Below, one piece after another: positions 10,989 to 55,279 of a DNA stretch of 55,279 bases; the first letter of the stretch is position 1; each line of letters opens with the position of its first letter. Position numbers and translations under genes: made by a program. Origin of the DNA: a virus. The stretch is from the IMG/VR virus record IMGVR_UViG_3300019768_000001, positions 1-55,279 of that record; one strand, 5' to 3'. The notes beneath the pieces were generated by a model. It ran no database searches. It was not told where the DNA came from and saw only the letters and a list, made by a program, of their open reading frames with translations.

Positions 10989-11408
10989 ATGAGAGAGATT
11001 AGTTTTCGTGGTCGTTCGATCATTAATTGCAAGTATTCAGGTATCAAGGTTGGTGGCTGGATTTTCGGTAGTTTTATTCATTCAGGTGTAGATGCGCCTT
11101 GTATTATTTTCGGTGATGGCGAGCAGTGTGAAATAGATATAAAAACACTCGGCCAATACACCGGACTGAAAGACTGCGAGGGCAAGAAGATATTCGAGGG
11201 GGATATTATAGCAGGCGCCAACGTTCAGTATGCTGGATTGGTATTTTTTGACGATTCAGCGGCAATTTATAGCGTTAAGATTTACGAGGATGGAGAACAC
11301 ATAGAAACAATGGGGCTAGCCAGATTTATCATGCACGCCGGTAGAGTTTACGATTACTCAAAGATCATCGGAAACGAGCACGAAAATCCTGGGCTACTAA
11401 ACGCCTAG
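10989..11408 (+). CDS. YopX-family protein
   Basis: 139 residues. Starts MREISFRGRS and contains GQYTGLKDCEGKKIFEGDII, the diagnostic pattern of YopX proteins, which are widespread in phages and prophages with unknown function. ATG 10989 has GGGGTAGGGT upstream. The C-terminal EVIGNIYENP-like motif of the family is present as KIIGNEHENP. Confidence 0.87.
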   Translation: MREISFRGRSIINCKYSGIKVGGWIFGSFIHSGVDAPCIIFGDGEQCEIDIKTLGQYTGLKDCEGKKIFEGDIIAGANVQYAGLVFFDDSAAIYSVKIYEDGEHIETMGLARFIMHAGRVYDYSKIIGNEHENPGLLNA

Positions 11409-30679: not shown

Positions 30680-30844
30680 TTAGACGTTAGTCTTTTTATC
30701 TCGCTTAAACTCAGTACACCGGACGATATTTGTACCGTCCTTCTCTCGACTGATCATCGGCATTTCATCAAACTTTAAACCGCTACAGTCTTTGTGCTTA
30801 TTGACGCATACGGCGCACATGCCGCCCTTGGGTTGGTGGCTCAC
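30680..30844 (-). CDS. Small zinc-binding-type protein, 54 residues
   Basis: GTG 30844 overlaps the upstream stop (GTGA). MSHQPKGGMCAVCVNKHKDC has a CAVC pair followed by further Cys, a likely zinc site. The gene ends AAC GTC TAA TACC, a string that recurs after several other genes. Confidence 0.62.
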   Translation of the reverse strand: MSHQPKGGMCAVCVNKHKDCSGLKFDEMPMISREKDGTNIVRCTEFKRDKKTNV

Positions 30845-31563
30845 TTGTCGCCCTCCAGATAATAACTTTCGTGCTTAGACCATTGCTCAGACACCCATGT
30901 AACACCTTTAGGTGTGAACTTGGCTTGCTTGTATGCGTGGCCGGTATCACCTGCATCAGTGACACCTGTTTTTACTTCAAATCGACCTGCATCAATATGG
31001 TTTTGATATGGCACCCAGTCACCGGCCAGCTTATACATGATTTTCTGATCGGTTAGGAATCGACGGAATACAGGCTCTTTTACAAATAGCAGCTTACAGA
31101 CTTCACGAAACCCCATTAGGCCAGTGGCTTCGACATACTTTTCTTTGAACTCGATAGCCGGTTTAGCCTCTTCCAGTTTTTCAAGGGCGATCTGTTTTTG
31201 CTCAGCTTCATCAGCCCAAGCACGGGCAGCAGCAACAGGGTCTGAGAAGTCTGGTAAAGTAGGTTTATCATTATTCTGAAGGCTAGACACCCACTCACGA
31301 ACGCGACGCCTTACGGTCTTGGATTCTCGCATACCAACCTGTAGAGCCTGATCTCTATCAATTAGCGCACATTTCGACTCTGTATTGTTCATATTTTGAA
31401 CAACGAAAGTTTCGTAGTGTTCACCTTCAAGCTCGTCCTCTACTTTTGCGATAAAATCCGCAGGTCTTACCGGTTTCTCGCTAGCCTCTTTTCGGAAAAC
31501 GTTTATCACGTTAAGTAAATCAACAGTACTAATTAAACCGTCACTTACAACTAAGTCATTCAT
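30841..31563 (-). CDS. Phage antirepressor-like protein (Rha/ANT type)
   Basis: 240 residues. The N-terminal part (DLLNVINVFRKEASEKPVRP, VGMRESKTVRRRVREW) is a Rha-like DNA- or partner-binding region. The C-terminal part (EATGLMGFREVCKLLFVKEP, FLTDQKIMYKLAGDWVPYQN) is the KilAC/ANT domain of phage antirepressors. A paralogue lies on the other strand at 34126-34815. Likely inactivates a repressor; the target is not visible here. It is preceded by a long leader with a terminator-like hairpin. Confidence 0.85.
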   Translation of the reverse strand: MNDLVVSDGLISTVDLLNVINVFRKEASEKPVRPADFIAKVEDELEGEHYETFVVQNMNNTESKCALIDRDQALQVGMRESKTVRRRVREWVSSLQNNDKPTLPDFSDPVAAARAWADEAEQKQIALEKLEEAKPAIEFKEKYVEATGLMGFREVCKLLFVKEPVFRRFLTDQKIMYKLAGDWVPYQNHIDAGRFEVKTGVTDAGDTGHAYKQAKFTPKGVTWVSEQWSKHESYYLEGDK

Positions 31564-32886: not shown

Positions 32887-33315
32887 CTATCTCCAGTCTG
32901 TATCGTCCTTGTTTGATTTGCCTATATTGCAGTCATCACAAAGAATTTGCAGGTTATCAATATCAAGCTCTAACTCAGGTCTAAGCGATCTAGGCTTTAT
33001 GTGATCGACATGAATAACTACGCCATCTTTAGCGCCCCTCCCGCACAACATGCATTTTCCGCCGTGATTCGACAGAACTTTATATCGAAGCTCTCGCCAG
33101 TCTCTACTTTTGAAAAAATCAGAACCAGACGATCCGTAGGTAAATGGAACTGGATTCTTCTCACCGGTAAGACGGTTAAGATTCCTGGTAAGTTGGCGCA
33201 GAGAATCCTTTACACCCCTTGGATTGTCGTAAAATCCAGATTCAAGCAGCTTTGTTTTCTGCTCTATCTTGAACCTTAACGTCTTCGCTCGTTCTTCTTT
33301 GCTTTTTCTTGCCAT
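32887..33315 (-). CDS. HNH endonuclease
   Basis: 142 residues. The C-terminal half has GGKCMLCGRGAKDGVVIHVD, HIKPRS and ILCDDCNIGKSN, the beta-beta-alpha-metal HNH fold with two CxxC zinc knuckles. The N-terminal part is basic and helical. It is a free-standing nuclease, possibly mobile, next to an unusually structured, gene-free stretch (33316-33720). Confidence 0.88.
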   Translation of the reverse strand: MARKSKEERAKTLRFKIEQKTKLLESGFYDNPRGVKDSLRQLTRNLNRLTGEKNPVPFTYGSSGSDFFKSRDWRELRYKVLSNHGGKCMLCGRGAKDGVVIHVDHIKPRSLRPELELDIDNLQILCDDCNIGKSNKDDTDWR

Positions 33316-33378
33316 TTCAGACCACCTTTATTTTCTTGTTTATATATATCCAGAGTAGGTTTCTAGGTTTAGATAGGC

Positions 33379-33427
33379 ATAACAACTCTAAGGAAACCAA
33401 TATTAATCAGTTAACCTTAGCTGTTAT
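33379..33427. repeat. attC-like palindromic element, candidate
   Basis: ATAACA (33379-33384) and TGTTAT (33422-33427) at the ends, CTAAGG/CCTTAG inner stem with unpaired bases on one side. Similar frame to the elements at 17779, 35881 and 48631, but no small gene ends at it. Confidence 0.4.
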
Positions 33428-33439
33428 ACCTGATATATC

Positions 33440-33718
33440 CGTCGTAGTGTGTCTTAGGATATCAAGGCAGTCTATTCGATCATGGTCTAATAAACTTAGG
33501 TCAGTATGGTCAATGAACCACCAGAGTCATGCGCTAGACCTACACCTGTTAAGGCAACTCTTAGGCGCTCCCGCTTGCTCTCTGTGCCATGTAGCGGGAT
33601 TGTCACCAGTACGCACCGGTTTTAACCGACATACTGGTCTAGCTGATTACGTGGGATTGCTCGGAGTAATCCCTTTAACCGTTTCTGGCTTCGGGACGTG
33701 GGGCGGGATTTCAGGCAT
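33440..33718. other. Gene-free stretch with several strong hairpins
   Basis: At least three hairpins: CCCGCT/AGCGGG (33570-33598), CCAGTA/TACTGG enclosing an ACCGGTT/AACCG stem (33606-33637), and GGGATT/AATCCC (33652-33672). No convincing gene on either strand. Likely structured RNA or DNA; orientation unclear. Confidence 0.5.
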
Positions 33719-33822
33719 AAAAAAAGGTCTTTTAGGTGTGCCCCTGTGAGAGGAAGCGGAATTAACCGCAAAGACACACTTAAAAAACCTTTCTCGCTAT
33801 CTGGCTCTCACCCCAATCAGCA
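33719..33822 (-). ncRNA. Candidate small RNA ending in an 18-bp terminator hairpin
   Basis: Promoter TATAAT at 33834-33829 on the minus strand. The RNA would run about 100 nt to a hairpin whose arms (33773-33790 and 33725-33742) pair over 18 bp using several G-U pairs, followed by seven T (33725-33719). GTGAGAG and CTCTCAC (33805-33811 / 33746-33752) can pair as an alternative. The only following ORF is 23 codons with no ribosome site, so it is more likely an RNA than a leader. Confidence 0.55.
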
Positions 33823-33982
33823 CTAACAATTATACTTTATGGTTAGATTTAATCAACAAATCTTTGAAGCACACCCTGCGGGGTTAATTGCCACCGGCGG
33901 TGCTTGGCCCCGATAGCAAAAACAGGATGCGCCCCAAAGCCCCTAAGAATCTTCATTATGAACCGCAATAGTTACTTTGCAA

Positions 33983-34005: not shown

Positions 34006-34114
34006 ATCGGCTTCGCACCCGTATATTTCAACAGTTAAAAATAGGAATTGCATTCTAGCTTTGGGCTACTGTTGGCCGTGCGAACAAAGCTTTGATTGCA
34101 ATTCCTTTTTTTTT
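34006..34114 (+). ncRNA. Attenuator-like 5' leader of the second antirepressor gene
   Basis: Begins near the expected start site after TATAAT. AGGAATTGCA (34043-34052) pairs perfectly with TGCAATTCCT (34097-34106), with AGCTTTG/CAAAGCT nested inside, followed by nine T (34106-34114) and then the ribosome site GGAG (34115-34118) of ATG 34126. Confidence 0.65.
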
Positions 34115-34125
34115 GGAGTTTTTCC

Positions 34126-34815
34126 ATGAACGATTTAGTTTTACCCGCCAATACACAGACAATGACCAGCCTAGAGCTGCGCGATATTATCAATAGCTCT
34201 CGCCAGAGCAGCAATGAACCCAAGGTTCGCAATGATCAGCTTATTGATAGAATTAAAGATGAGCTTGAAGGTGAATTAGGGGTATGCAAAAAAATTGCAC
34301 ACCCCCAAAGCGGCGTTGAAATGAAATACTACGACCTGACGATTGATCAATGCACCCTGGTTGGTATGCGTGAATCTAAGTCTGTCCGCCGTAACGTGCT
34401 GGCAAAGCTTAAAGAGCTGGAATCAGGCCAGAAAAAGATACCTCAGTCTTTCGCAGAGGCTCTACAACTTGCAGCAGACCAAGCCCTTCAGATTGAGCAG
34501 CAGGAGCAACAACTCGCCATTGCAGCCCCGAAGGTGGACTTTTACGATACTGTTACAGGGTCAGATGATACCGTTGACATGCTTGGAGCGGTGAAAGTGC
34601 TTAACCTTGGCTACGGACGCACTACCCTATTCAAAAAACTGCGCGAGAAAAAGGTTCTGCGTAAGAGCAATCAGCCGTACCAGCGGTATATTGATTCTGG
34701 ATATTTCCGAGTTGTCGAGTCAACTTGGACTGATGATAAAGGCGATTCTCACGTACACTTTAAAACAGTGGTATACCAGAAGGGCTTAGACTACATCAAA
34801 AAGATTCTGGCCTAG
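34126..34815 (+). CDS. Phage antirepressor-like protein (ANT domain), paralogue
   Basis: 229 residues from ATG 34126. The N-terminal region shares VGMRESKSVRR with the minus-strand paralogue at 30841. The C-terminal ANT domain contains MLGAVKVLNLGYGRTTLFKK and LRKSNQPYQRYIDSGYFRVV. It lies on the opposite strand about 2.6 kb away, with its own promoter and attenuator-like leader, and a terminator at 34828. Confidence 0.85.
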   Translation: MNDLVLPANTQTMTSLELRDIINSSRQSSNEPKVRNDQLIDRIKDELEGELGVCKKIAHPQSGVEMKYYDLTIDQCTLVGMRESKSVRRNVLAKLKELESGQKKIPQSFAEALQLAADQALQIEQQEQQLAIAAPKVDFYDTVTGSDDTVDMLGAVKVLNLGYGRTTLFKKLREKKVLRKSNQPYQRYIDSGYFRVVESTWTDDKGDSHVHFKTVVYQKGLDYIKKILA

Positions 34816-35876: not shown

Positions 35877-35880
35877 TGCA

Positions 35881-35927
35881 ATAACACCTCAATAACATAG
35901 ACCTTCGGCTATGTATTTCTCTGTTAT
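35881..35927 (-). repeat. attC-like 47-bp element, copy B
   Basis: ATAACA...TGTTAT ends, inner stem CATAG/CTATG with loop ACCTTCGG, exactly 47 bp like copies at 17779 and 48631. It starts directly after the stop (35934-35932) of the 41-residue ORF and carries the ribosome site of the next gene. Confidence 0.6.
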
Positions 35928-35931
35928 ATTG

Positions 35932-36779: not shown

Positions 36780-37312
36780 GCTCCTTGCCTAGTCTTTTTG
36801 CAAATTACTTTAAATTAATTGTAGAAAGCGCATAACAAAGCAAGGCAATCGGATGCAAGCACCGTTGCTCGCAAAGATTATTTGCTCTATTTGATGCGCC
36901 GACTATTTACCAATCAGCACATCGAATAAAACGCCCTGCCGCAGGAATCCGGGCCAGACCATGAAAAGAGGAAAAATATCAAAACCCCTTGCCTGCTTGC
37001 ACATTGATTCGGCTCTGTGTGCTCCACTGGAGATTCCGCGCATCATGTAAATCCAATGGACGGCAGCTTCAAAGCTACACAAAGCTAATTATCGCGGACA
37101 TAATGCCAGATCCGCGCCCTGATATAGGGTATTAATGTGACTGTTAGCGCCACCCTCCCCGCTGTGACAATATTGTCGGAAAGGTGACGCTAAGGAATGC
37201 GCTCTGTCGTTCCCATAATTTTATACACAACCACAATGCAATTTATTGAACAAACACACTTTGGTTAATGTTTAAGTTATGGCAAAGCGCATTATTTAGC
37301 GCAACTAACAGT
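36780..37312. other. Gene-free stretch with hairpins
   Basis: No supported gene on either strand. It contains ATAACA near 36838 without a matching end, TTAGCG...CGCTAA flanking GGTG/CACC, and the 12-bp palindrome GACAATATTGTC. It probably belongs to the structured region that continues to 38720. Confidence 0.4.
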
Positions 37313-37531
37313 CTACGGCAAGCTATCTTCGAGCTCCTTTTTTTCATCTTCGTCTATCAATCCTTTTTCGTACATTTCAACAATAAAACCATTAAACCCG
37401 CTGACAATATTGGTAAAATAACGACTTGAAACATGCGGGCCTAAACAAACCACTACAGGAATAAGAATCGCCGCTAAAATAGCGAATACAGCAAGATTAA
37501 AAAATAACCATGCCCCTATTATATTTTTGAT
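37313..37531 (-). CDS. Small membrane protein with non-standard start
   Basis: 72 residues if translation begins at ATC 37531, directly after a perfect AAGGAGG. No ATG, GTG or TTG lies in frame between the upstream stop and the hydrophobic segment (IIGAWLFFNLAVFAILAAIL). The rest is IPVVVCLGPHVSSRYFTNIV and an acidic tail. The start may be a point change of ATG or a true AUC/AUA start. Kept because the ribosome site and protein character are convincing. Confidence 0.5.
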   Translation of the reverse strand: MKNIIGAWLFFNLAVFAILAAILIPVVVCLGPHVSSRYFTNIVSGFNGFIVEMYEKGLIDEDEKKELEDSLP

Positions 37532-37549
37532 ACCGCCTCCTTGTTTAAT

Positions 37550-37622
37550 TGGCAGCCCTATCAGGAATCGAACCTGAATCGTTACAAATCAGCCACACTG
37601 ATACAGATGACGGCGCTCGTAC
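37550..37622 (-). tRNA. Degenerate tRNA-like sequence, His(GTG)-like
   Basis: TCAGG-TTCGATT-CCTGA is a perfect T arm, followed by a 3' strand and encoded CCA (37552-37550). The presumed anticodon loop GTGTGGC would give GTG. The 5' acceptor strand does not pair with the 3' strand. Better called a relic than a working tRNA. Confidence 0.4.
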
Positions 37623-37736
37623 ACCGCGAAATAACGACACAACCAGGATGGCAATTGATCTTATATGCTAATTTTTCAGACGAGCATAATTAATGATTGA
37701 TCATTGCCGCCCTATAATGTTCGGGCTTTAAATGGG

Positions 37737-37809
37737 GCCACAAACGGGACTCGAACCTGCGACCTCTCGCTTAGGAGTCGAGCGTTCTATCCAACTGAAC
37801 TAATAGCGC
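37737..37809 (-). tRNA. Degenerate tRNA-Arg(CCT)-like sequence
   Basis: 73 nt with a D arm (GTTC/GAAC), anticodon loop CTCCTAA and T loop TTCGAGT, but the acceptor pairs in only about four of seven positions and the T stem has a mismatch. A decayed or unusual phage tRNA. Confidence 0.5.
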
Positions 37810-37815
37810 TTAAGA

Positions 37816-37888
37816 GCTGAAGGCCGGATTCGAACCGACGCAATACCAATGCGAACAAAGGCGGGTTTTCCAGTTTCCCCACTTCAGC
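37816..37888 (-). tRNA. tRNA-like sequence without an anticodon arm
   Basis: Acceptor GCTGAAG/CTTCAGC pairs perfectly (7 bp); D arm with CTGG; T arm GTCGG-TTCGAAT-CCGGC. Between them, CGCA-TTGGTAT-TGCG looks like a class-II variable arm, and a normal anticodon stem is missing. Could be a deletion derivative of a Leu/Ser tRNA or a tRNA mimic. Confidence 0.5.
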
Positions 37889-37889
37889 T

Positions 37890-38720
37890 TAAATTGACCA
37901 GACTCTTCTCAGAGTGTAGAGGAATGTTAGATAACCCCTAACCGGGTAGATTATCACCTCCTTACTTCGCCCCGTGATATTAGAATTAAAACGGTTACAG
38001 CTTTTCGGTTGGCTAAATACAGTAAAATTATGAGGCTGCACCTATCATCTTTTCAGACCTGATGGATAGCCAGGAGTCTTTCCATGTAAGATTTTTGGCG
38101 ACTCTTTAACGTGCTATTTCCTTCCCGTTGCCCTTCACTGTATTGGTGTAGGCACCTGCCAAATTGATCCAGTTAGGAGCGTCCATCAGCAGAAACCTAC
38201 CCAATACACACCGCTTAGCCGGTGAATCTATGCATTAAAAATCAAGCTGAAGACCAAATTCCCAACCGATGATCGCGTCTACCTAATGACGCCTACTCAG
38301 GCTGCAGCCTGCTTATAGCCCACCCCGTCGACTAGGAGGGTGCCAGCGCCATGTATACTCACAACACTGAAAACAGCTTGATTTTTAATGCACACTGGTT
38401 ACGCCAGTGAATCGGATTTACTCTTATCTGATTGTGCTTTATTGGCCCGCACTTACCGCCGTAGTGGTCTAACGTTATCCTAACCATATTCAACCTGTTC
38501 AACTGCACCAGGCTTATGAATAGGCATCCAACTTTTTGACATTGGATCAGGTCTTTCTCTATGGCGATTCATACAGGCAAGTTGCAATAAAAATAATAAC
38601 ATCTCACCTTCCTTGTTAAGTCTGCCAGATTAACCGCTGGCAGCTCCGGTTTTGTCGGGTAACTCCGGCAACGAATGGCAACCCGCTGCCTGCAAAACAA
38701 TAATAGCAAATTAATTTAAA
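37890..38720. ncRNA. Large structured gene-free region (candidate ornate RNA)
   Basis: No ORF of note. Contains nested complementarity: AATACAGT/ACTGTATT (about 38030/38145), GGCT...AGCC around TATC/GATA pairs (38070-38115), a 19-bp inverted repeat (38231-38249 / 38374-38392) and two homologous hairpins CACCG/CGGTG and CACTGG/CCAGTG, both followed by TGAATC. On the minus strand UAAGGAGGUGAU (37964-37953) is the exact complement of the 3' end of 16S rRNA. It adjoins tRNA-like sequences, a setting known for giant phage RNAs such as GOLLD. Confidence 0.45.
38231..38392. repeat. 19-bp perfect inverted repeat
   Basis: TGCATTAAAAATCAAGCTG (38231-38249) and its exact reverse complement at 38374-38392, 124 bp apart. 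The enclosed segment includes the 12-bp palindrome AGGCTGCAGCCT and CACCC...GGGTG. Confidence 0.85.
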
Positions 38721-38742
38721 CAGGTGGTATTAGACGTTGGTA

Positions 38743-38919
38743 TTAGTCCGGCTTAAACCTTTCTTTTCCGGTGCCATCACAGCCGCCACAAGGCGGGCTT
38801 CCATTGTGGTCATAAACACCTGATCCGCTACAAGCAGAACAAGGCCTCAACTTCCATCCCTTTACGTTTTTTTCATAGTATTCAGTACGCCGCTTCTTTC
38901 TCTCTTTGAATGTCGCCAT
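38743..38919 (-). CDS. Small DnaJ-type zinc-finger protein
   Basis: 58 residues from ATG 38919 with GAGGTGGTGAG upstream. LRPCSACSGSGVYDHNGSPP then CGGCDGTGKERF carries two CxxCxGxG repeats, the half-module of DnaJ zinc fingers seen in many small phage proteins next to ninB. Overlaps the NinB stop. Confidence 0.72.
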   Translation of the reverse strand: MATFKERKKRRTEYYEKNVKGWKLRPCSACSGSGVYDHNGSPPCGGCDGTGKERFKPD

Positions 38920-38920
38920 C

Positions 38921-39388
38921 TCACCACCTCGCCTTATACTGTTCATAAAAATCTAAATACGGCTCTGACCACGTTACGTTATGCTCAACGCCCCATGCGT
39001 ACAGAAACGCTATAAAATCGCCAGCCTCACCTTTTCTAAACTCGGTAGTGCTAGCGCTCATGGTGACAGCCCTTTTGCCGTCTAGGCTTATTACAGTACG
39101 GCTTGGATGGCTTAGTTTCTGACCTTGGTTGTTTATTTCCATTTCAAACTGATCAACCAGCAGCCTTTTCCAGATATCGGCACCGTACTGCCTGCCTTCA
39201 ACCTCAACCTGACCCGCAATATCCCGAAACATCGCGTGGTACTTCTTTTCCATCAGCCGGGATTTCTTAACATCACGAATCAGGATCTCAACAGGCCCGC
39301 CAGTGACGTATGTTTTAACTACCTCCCAAACCTTACCCATCTGAGGCCGTAGATTGTCCAGCGATACCACAATTGTTATCGGCTTCAT
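38921..39388 (-). CDS. ninB: NinB recombination-mediator protein
   Basis: 155 residues. SRLMEKKYHAMFRDIAGQVE and ADIWKRLLVDQFEMEINNQG match NinB/Orf of lambdoid phages, a recombination mediator that binds SSB and ssDNA in RecF-type recombination. Lies downstream of the O/P genes as in lambdoid nin regions. Confidence 0.85.
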   Translation of the reverse strand: MKPITIVVSLDNLRPQMGKVWEVVKTYVTGGPVEILIRDVKKSRLMEKKYHAMFRDIAGQVEVEGRQYGADIWKRLLVDQFEMEINNQGQKLSHPSRTVISLDGKRAVTMSASTTEFRKGEAGDFIAFLYAWGVEHNVTWSEPYLDFYEQYKARW

Positions 39389-54023: not shown

Positions 54024-55279
54024 TAGGCCACCTGCTGCCTTACGTTGAATCCTGCGCCATTAAACGCCTCTGTAATCGCCTCATGAACCTCATCTTGTCG
54101 GTCAATCATGCGATCAAATCCAGCGGTCACAACTGAGTTAACCCCCATAACCGCATTCACAATACTACTAACGTCTATTGTAACAGGCTGACGGAATAAA
54201 TCCGCAGGGTTCATACCTGAGTTAAGCGCGTTTACAGCAGATCCACCCATGTTTGATGTAGCCATCGGATTTAAAACCGCCTCTTGACCATGAACTATTC
54301 CCCGAACCTCTCCGATACTACCTCCGGTTAGTCCGCCTGAATTAAACCCTGGAAGACCTAATACTGCCGCTATCTCGGCGGGAGTCAAATCAACACCGCT
54401 GGCTTGAGCTGACGCAGTTTCTAGCGGCTGATTGAATGCCCCGGTATCAATAACGCCGGTAGATCCAGACGGGCCAGTAAACGTAGTTGCTACCCCTGTG
54501 CTGCTACCTACCTGACTAATAATTGAACCGCCAGAAGGAACGCTTGCCGCCCCAGCTTGAGATGCGGGAAGTTGAGACAGAGAGTTAGACAGTGCAAGGA
54601 GCGCATCAGCAACGGACATTACAGAATTATCGATTCCTAGTAGCGCGTCAAGCTGTGCCTGATTTGCAGAAATGGCATTATCACGCTCTTCTATCAGCAG
54701 TTCAATTTGCCGGTCTGCGGCCTCATTTGCCTCTGACCTGCCGTCTTCCAGCTCTAGCAGCGTTTTTTCTTCAACAGATAGTTGCTGCCCGGCTTTTTGC
54801 TCTAATGCCTTAATCTGGTTTGCGGCCACGGCCTGAGCAAAAGCGAAATCTTCCTGCGTTCTAAATTGATCTTCGGAGATATTGGTTAGATCTCCAAGCA
54901 ATGATTCCAGTTCATCACTACCTGGAAGCGTACTACCTGCGATAATAGCCCCAATCCTTGAGCTGGCCGCTTGCTGTCTAGCTATATCTATTTCTAGCGA
55001 TGACGCGCGAACAGCCGAGGCGGAAGATTTAAGTAGTCGCTGGATGTCCTTTAGGTTTGATATCGTGCTTTTTGCCGCTTCTTTTCGCTGGTCAGAAAGA
55101 TCATCTTCATCTTCCTGCGTGCTTCTAATCGCGTCAATCTGATCTTGATATCTATCAGTCAATCTATCCGCTTCAGCAGCAACGGCTTTCTCTGCGTCAG
55201 ATTTAGCCCTGTCAACTTTAGCCTCGAAATCAAATAATTCAGCGGCGGTTTCTTTCACTGATTCAGCGATGGTTTCAAC
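54023..55279 (-). CDS. Tape measure protein, C-terminal part
   Basis: Continuation of the gene starting at 3774: 378 codons from 55156 to TAA 54025-54023. 55157-55279 repeats the reading at 1-123. Contains a coiled coil (ADRQIELLIEERDNAISANQ) and a Gly-rich C-terminal domain with GGSIGEVRGIVHGQEAVLNP, a motif common at the end of tape measure proteins (GGLIRGPGTGTSDSIPA-like). The C-terminus ends GAGFNVRQQVA. Confidence 0.92.
   Translation of the reverse strand, partial: VETIAESVKETAAELFDFEAKVDRAKSDAEKAVAAEADRLTDRYQDQIDAIRSTQEDEDDLSDQRKEAAKSTISNLKDIQRLLKSSASAVRASSLEIDIARQQAASSRIGAIIAGSTLPGSDELESLLGDLTNISEDQFRTQEDFAFAQAVAANQIKALEQKAGQQLSVEEKTLLELEDGRSEANEAADRQIELLIEERDNAISANQAQLDALLGIDNSVMSVADALLALSNSLSQLPASQAGAASVPSGGSIISQVGSSTGVATTFTGPSGSTGVIDTGAFNQPLETASAQASGVDLTPAEIAAVLGLPGFNSGGLTGGSIGEVRGIVHGQEAVLNPMATSNMGGSAVNALNSGMNPADLFRQPVTIDVSSIVNAVMGVNSVVTAGFDRMIDRQDEVHEAITEAFNGAGFNVRQQVA
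55157..55279. repeat. Terminal direct repeat, right copy
   Basis: Identical to 1-123 (see that entry). It marks the point where the linear contig closes. Confidence 0.93.

Follow-up and report, generated by a model that had tools for sequence, protein, structure and literature searches.

A likely large structured non-coding RNA with a tRNA-derived module encoded on the minus strand of a phage genome

We analysed a 55,279-base phage genome (IMG/VR virus record IMGVR_UViG_3300019768_000001), referred to below as the window, and found a minus-strand locus that, judging from its sequence, is likely to encode a large structured non-coding RNA whose class is absent from Rfam. The locus very likely specifies a functional structured RNA, probably a large free molecule and not a leader, while action of this RNA on ribosomes can be put forward only tentatively. 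The first-pass annotation of this DNA had proposed a candidate giant RNA beside tRNA-like sequences. Conservation and compensatory changes bear out the large structured non-coding RNA, but not the kinship with GOLLD that the proposal implied.

On one side of the locus lies a NinB/zinc-finger gene group (38743-39388), on the other a series of small genes, all of them encoded on the minus strand. It had been described as lacking open reading frames (ORFs), and this description held: with a codon model trained on the phage itself and its relatives, every ORF of at least 25 aa in 37541-38742 scored about 0 or below, and most neighbouring genes scored +10 to +67 on the same model. The coding score is negative for one 40-aa ORF (38480-38602) despite its good ribosome site; since it also has no convincing homologue and is missing in the relative described below, we left it out of the conserved parts. 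It lies in a stretch peculiar to the window phage (38430-38690), which makes up the approximately 270 nt between the -10 block and the core. The gene-free region, initially placed at 37550-38720, is real but its boundaries shift: the conserved RNA begins near 38425, a promoter-like site at 38700-38710 is conserved as well, and beyond 37550 conserved structure continues to a terminator at 36924-36946. In addition, we observed a probable small membrane-protein gene at 37313-37530 on the minus strand, which has a strong ribosome site (AAGGAGG) and no ATG, GTG or TTG at the usual distance, so that its start would be ATC or ATA, or the sequence contains an error; this gene is missing in the relative.

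To find relatives, we used one arm of the inverted repeat as the query against 2.9 million viral contigs, and one other phage matched, namely IMGVR_UViG_3300019766_000001 (55,858 bases; hereafter G015), where the same locus is flanked by the same genes. The comparison below rests on these two sequences, the window phage and G015. The two phages are mosaic, with aligned segments 70% to 99.5% identical, and part of the identity at the locus could therefore stem from recent exchange. At third codon positions, the genes beside the locus differ by 48% (NinB), 51% (phrog_7990), and 27% and 43% (two downstream genes). Within the locus, the 223-nt core aligns without gaps and carries 9 differences (4%, i.e. 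96% identical), the cloverleaf is approximately 98% identical with identity over 80 nt, and the 3' domain has diverged to 79% identity with its pairing retained. The linker (37897-38196) is unalignable as sequence, with about 29% of columns identical. The features of the locus are collected in Table 1.

Table 1 Features of the RNA locus in the window phage, listed along the minus strand.
Feature	Positions	Strand	Description
Extended -10 promoter-like site, TTTGCTATTAT	38700..38710	-	Conserved in G015
Conserved 5' core	38197..38419	-	Multibranched domain, closed by a 19-bp inverted repeat and flanked by two hairpins
5' arm of the 19-bp closing stem	38374..38392	-	Inverted repeat
3' arm of the 19-bp closing stem	38231..38249	-	Inverted repeat
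Linker helix, GUAUUGG-GUAGG / CCUAC-A-CCAAUAC	38140..38207	-	Compensatory changes relative to G015
Complement of the 16S rRNA 3' end, UAAGGAGGUGAU	37953..37964	-	12 nt, perfect match to the 16S 3' end
tRNA-derived cloverleaf	37816..37888	-	Rfam tRNA model, 35.7 bits here and 37.6 bits in G015
tRNA-Arg(CCU)-like gene	37736..37809	-	Mispaired acceptor stem, encoded CCA
3' domain	37556..37735	-	Junction closed by UCGUUA/UAACGA, two hairpins, T-arm-like hairpin
Downstream conserved non-coding segment C	36924..37134	-	Covarying helices, conserved terminator at the end

The core is built around the 19-bp inverted repeat that had already been spotted in the first reading. In the whole 55-kb window this is the sole perfect inverted repeat of at least 16 bp (arms within 250 nt), and none occurred in 20 shuffles. 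The closing stem extends to 21 bp with one G-U pair, and its G015 counterpart is a perfect 21-bp stem. The duplicated hairpins reported along with the repeat are likewise present, CACTGGCGTAACCAGTG at 38393-38409 and CACCGGCTAAGCGGTG at 38209-38224. Folding of 38190-38430 on the minus strand gave a z of -5.3 against shuffles. The core offers no covariation test, because it is too similar between the two phages.

Evidence for pairing came from the more diverged parts. In the linker helix, positions 38196-38207 pair with 38140-38152, as predicted by single-sequence folds of the window phage and of G015 alike. The G015 version reads GUAUUGG-AUAGC / GCUAU-A-CCAGUAC, in which both partners of two pairs have changed, one pair is a wobble and the bulged A is retained. 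A long-range pair between AATACAGT and ACTGTATT had been suggested previously; the match exists (38016-38026 with 38134-38144), but the pairing that G015 retains is a different one, the linker helix. For the 3' domain, we derived a predicted structure using only one of the phages and then mapped the changes of the other phage onto it. On the minus strand, two-sided compensatory changes numbered 5 (0.85-0.93 expected, P about 0.001) and broken pairs 7 (14 expected, P about 0.003), and the plus strand was weaker (2-3 double changes, P 0.03-0.2); these P values are approximate, since the null places changes at random and ignores their clustering. The first-pass annotation had looked to covariation for a decision on the RNA, and in both the 3' domain and the linker helix the pairing is kept by compensatory changes between the two sequences. 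Conserved secondary structure of this kind is what is expected of a large structured phage non-coding RNA.

The same comparison bears on the strand. Consensus folding favours the minus strand in every block, and G-U cells are in excess on it, 18 versus 4 in the core and 17 versus 5 in the 3' domain. Single-sequence folds of the minus strand gave z values of -3.3 (851 nt, window phage) and -6.8 (776 nt, G015) against shuffles. Compared by strand, the single-sequence z is about equal for the core and stronger on the plus strand for the 851-nt stretch; as the long repeat folds on both strands, this z alone leaves the strand unsettled.

The tRNA-like sequences mentioned in the first reading are partly what they seemed: two of them exceed the Rfam tRNA threshold on the minus strand (38.0 and 35.7 bits), but ARAGORN calls neither, and it reported no tRNA and no tmRNA at the locus in either phage. 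The neighbouring tRNAs are degenerate or tRNA-derived modules and form no working tRNA set. Specifically, the cloverleaf has a perfect 7-bp acceptor stem together with D- and T-arms, and it has no regular anticodon arm, its middle folding as a UUCG-loop hairpin instead. A 5-bp anticodon stem with a 7-nt anticodon loop is absent from it, and the Rfam tRNA model skips this arm in both phages. CCA is encoded directly after the cloverleaf in G015 and has been lost in the window phage. Owing to a weak resemblance to the tRNA-Leu gene of another relative, we read the cloverleaf as, probably, a former Leu-type tRNA whose anticodon arm has been lost. RNase P and the CCA-end enzymes act mainly on the acceptor/T-arm half of their substrates, and the cloverleaf could thus determine the 3' terminus of the upstream RNA. 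The tRNA-Arg(CCU)-like gene, which resembles tRNAs of Vibrio phages such as D507, is inserted right behind the cloverleaf and is missing in G015.

With three tRNA-like relics at hand, none of them intact by ARAGORN, one could picture a graveyard of decayed tRNA genes next to a site at which the DNA itself forms a hairpin or recombines, and no functional RNA at all; inverted repeats that are long and perfect may act at the DNA level, and mosaic phages would fit as well. We judge this very unlikely. Decay would not leave 96-98% identity beside genes so diverged, and it would produce neither the compensatory changes nor the one-strand G-U asymmetry. Moreover, the repeat occurs once per genome, and its 19-mer matched only one viral contig. 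A functional structured RNA is the reading that we follow.

The next question was where such an RNA might begin and end. The extended -10 site, which in G015 is TTTGCTATATT, sits within a 61-bp block common to both phages and has no -35 element; from its sequence we take it as a candidate promoter. At the other end, the terminator at 36924-36946 is conserved in G015. It belongs to segment C, where a 9-bp helix covaries from GCUUUGUGU/ACACAGAGC to GCCUUGUGU/ACGCAAGGC, and which by itself folds no better than shuffles; segment C may represent the 3'-terminal part of the same transcript. The strand asymmetry, the conserved extended -10 site and the conserved terminator together point to a minus-strand RNA of 0.8-1.8 kb.

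Alternatively, the locus might specify a cis-acting RNA of the early/late switch, a leader or antitermination element that would act on RNA polymerase while being made. Comparable cis-acting RNAs are the put RNAs of HK022 and the late leader of lambda. The setting would suit such an element, because ninB-type genes immediately precede the locus and the late operons follow downstream on its strand, and the closest terminase relative of the window phage is the lambdoid phage HK639. There is also a structured promoter-proximal stretch (38600-38690), but it is missing in G015. The conserved parts far exceed a put element and include the tRNA-like module and the 16S complement, and a conserved terminator follows them. 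We therefore consider a leader unlikely and retain the large free RNA.

As for function, the linker holds the 12-nt complement of the 16S rRNA 3' end, the only match of at least 11 nt in the window. Its G015 counterpart, AAGGAGGUGAUC (12 nt, 11091-11102), is the only match of at least 9 nt in that phage. The two complements sit 64 nt (window phage) and 62 nt (G015) before the cloverleaf, within the unalignable linker. No start codon follows at a usable distance in either phage. In predicted folds, the complement is partly paired inside the RNA itself, and it could be an ordinary Shine-Dalgarno relic.

On this basis, we can sketch how the RNA might work. Transcription would start from the putative extended -10 site at about 38700. 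The RNA would end at the cloverleaf, giving about 0.8 kb, if RNase P cuts there; alternatively, it would end at the terminator near 36930, giving about 1.8 kb here and 1.2 kb in G015. The transcript would fold as a stable RNA, and its linker might then pair with the anti-Shine-Dalgarno tail and so engage the host 30S subunit, which seems the most likely course but is the least certain step and is offered tentatively. Ribosomes would be held or redirected during infection as a result of this pairing, and the tRNA-like module may serve in processing, end protection or ribosome contact. GOLLD and OLE RNA, compared with the locus below, are precedents for such contact with the translation machinery. 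The complete picture, in which a giant phage RNA docks on the host 30S via 12-nt anti-SD pairing, carries an anticodon-less tRNA mimic and controls translation by RNA alone, is doubtful. An apparently unrelated class with a conserved 16S complement and a tRNA-derived module would allow one candidate function of giant phage RNAs such as GOLLD and ROOL, namely action on ribosomes, to be tested directly through mutation of 12 bases.

To find further members, we searched several collections. With blastn, neither the 50,697 phages nor the 72,556 plasmids searched yielded a relative of the RNA except for the tRNA-Arg-like piece. Among the viral contigs, a degenerate hairpin pattern gave no match, three conserved-stretch patterns matched G015 only, and a fourth gave 27 matches with G015 as the sole real relative. 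NinB alone as the query gave no match, and an alignment of two NinB proteins retrieved G015 only. In bacterial genomes, neither the phrog_7990 search nor the DNA pattern gave a match. A capsid search did give relatives, and no copy of the RNA was seen in them. The covariance model of the core (R1) picked up no copies beyond the two known ones in the loci compared. A class of this kind outside Rfam suggests that Rfam underrepresents the diversity of such RNAs among environmental phages.

The window holds other elements as well. A second gene-free structured element (element B, 33350-33860, minus strand) has a 244-nt core that is 99.2% identical to G015 and flanking hairpins that have diverged with their pairing largely kept. 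Its fold z is -5.1 on the minus and -2.6 on the plus strand, and it has no Rfam match and no phage or plasmid match. An HNH endonuclease gene (32887-33315, minus strand) lies directly downstream, and the two form no fixed pair, since G015 has a different gene there. KilAC-type antirepressor genes on opposite strands (30841-31563, minus; 34096-34815, plus) flank the element B region. Element A, element B and segment C show no similarity to each other. In addition, a 49-bp stretch with a hairpin (35880-35928) is identical in G015 (55205-55253) but lies elsewhere, inverted relative to the shared genes, and is possibly a mobile regulatory or recombination piece.

Finally, we compared the locus with known RNA classes. 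Rfam 15 scans of both phages, at gathering and permissive thresholds, returned tRNA only, the remainder being chance matches. The first-pass annotation had suggested an Rfam scan including GOLLD, and GOLLD was negative: the model of its conserved 3' region (RF02032) had no match up to E = 10 in the window or G015. The ROOL model (RF03087), in a search run without a positive control, also had no match up to E = 10 in either phage. The implied GOLLD kinship is accordingly not supported, with tRNA as the only Rfam family that matches. A strongly diverged member of GOLLD or ROOL would share the size class, the phage host, the tRNA neighbours and a variable linker between conserved 5' and 3' parts (PMC12286853), yet we hold it to be extremely unlikely given these negative model searches in both phages and the scans of the whole of Rfam, in which neither family appeared.

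We also weighed a tmRNA identity, which would bring a tRNA-like domain without an anticodon arm joined to a larger RNA. It was rejected, because ARAGORN and Rfam find none, no tag reading frame was recognised at the locus, and the acceptor strands are unpermuted. OLE RNA resembles the locus as a large ornate RNA with an SD/anti-SD mimic, which binds ribosomal protein bS21 (PMC12054373); it differs in being cellular, from Bacillota, and in binding other proteins besides bS21, and Rfam gave no match to it at our locus. The phage ICP1 makes an abundant non-coding transcript of about 800 nt (PMC7567579) and likewise has a gene-free space of about 1 kb and an RNA of unknown family. However, it shares no sequence similarity with our locus, is not matched by the core model R1, and ICP1 has no tRNAs. 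ROOL, a phage RNA that neighbours tRNA islands and whose internal linker is unconserved (PMC12286853), resembles the locus in these respects and differs by the lack of a model match in either phage. GOLLD, reported to bind ribosomes in pull-downs (PMC12286853), is a large phage or prophage RNA that frequently lies close to tRNAs or includes them, and it combines a conserved region with a variable one. Our locus is also phage-borne and has tRNA-family matches inside it, but there is no sequence or covariance-model match, and here the 5' side is the most conserved part. We therefore read the locus as a new class among the large structured phage RNAs, which are a known kind, and as GOLLD/ROOL-like in that sense.
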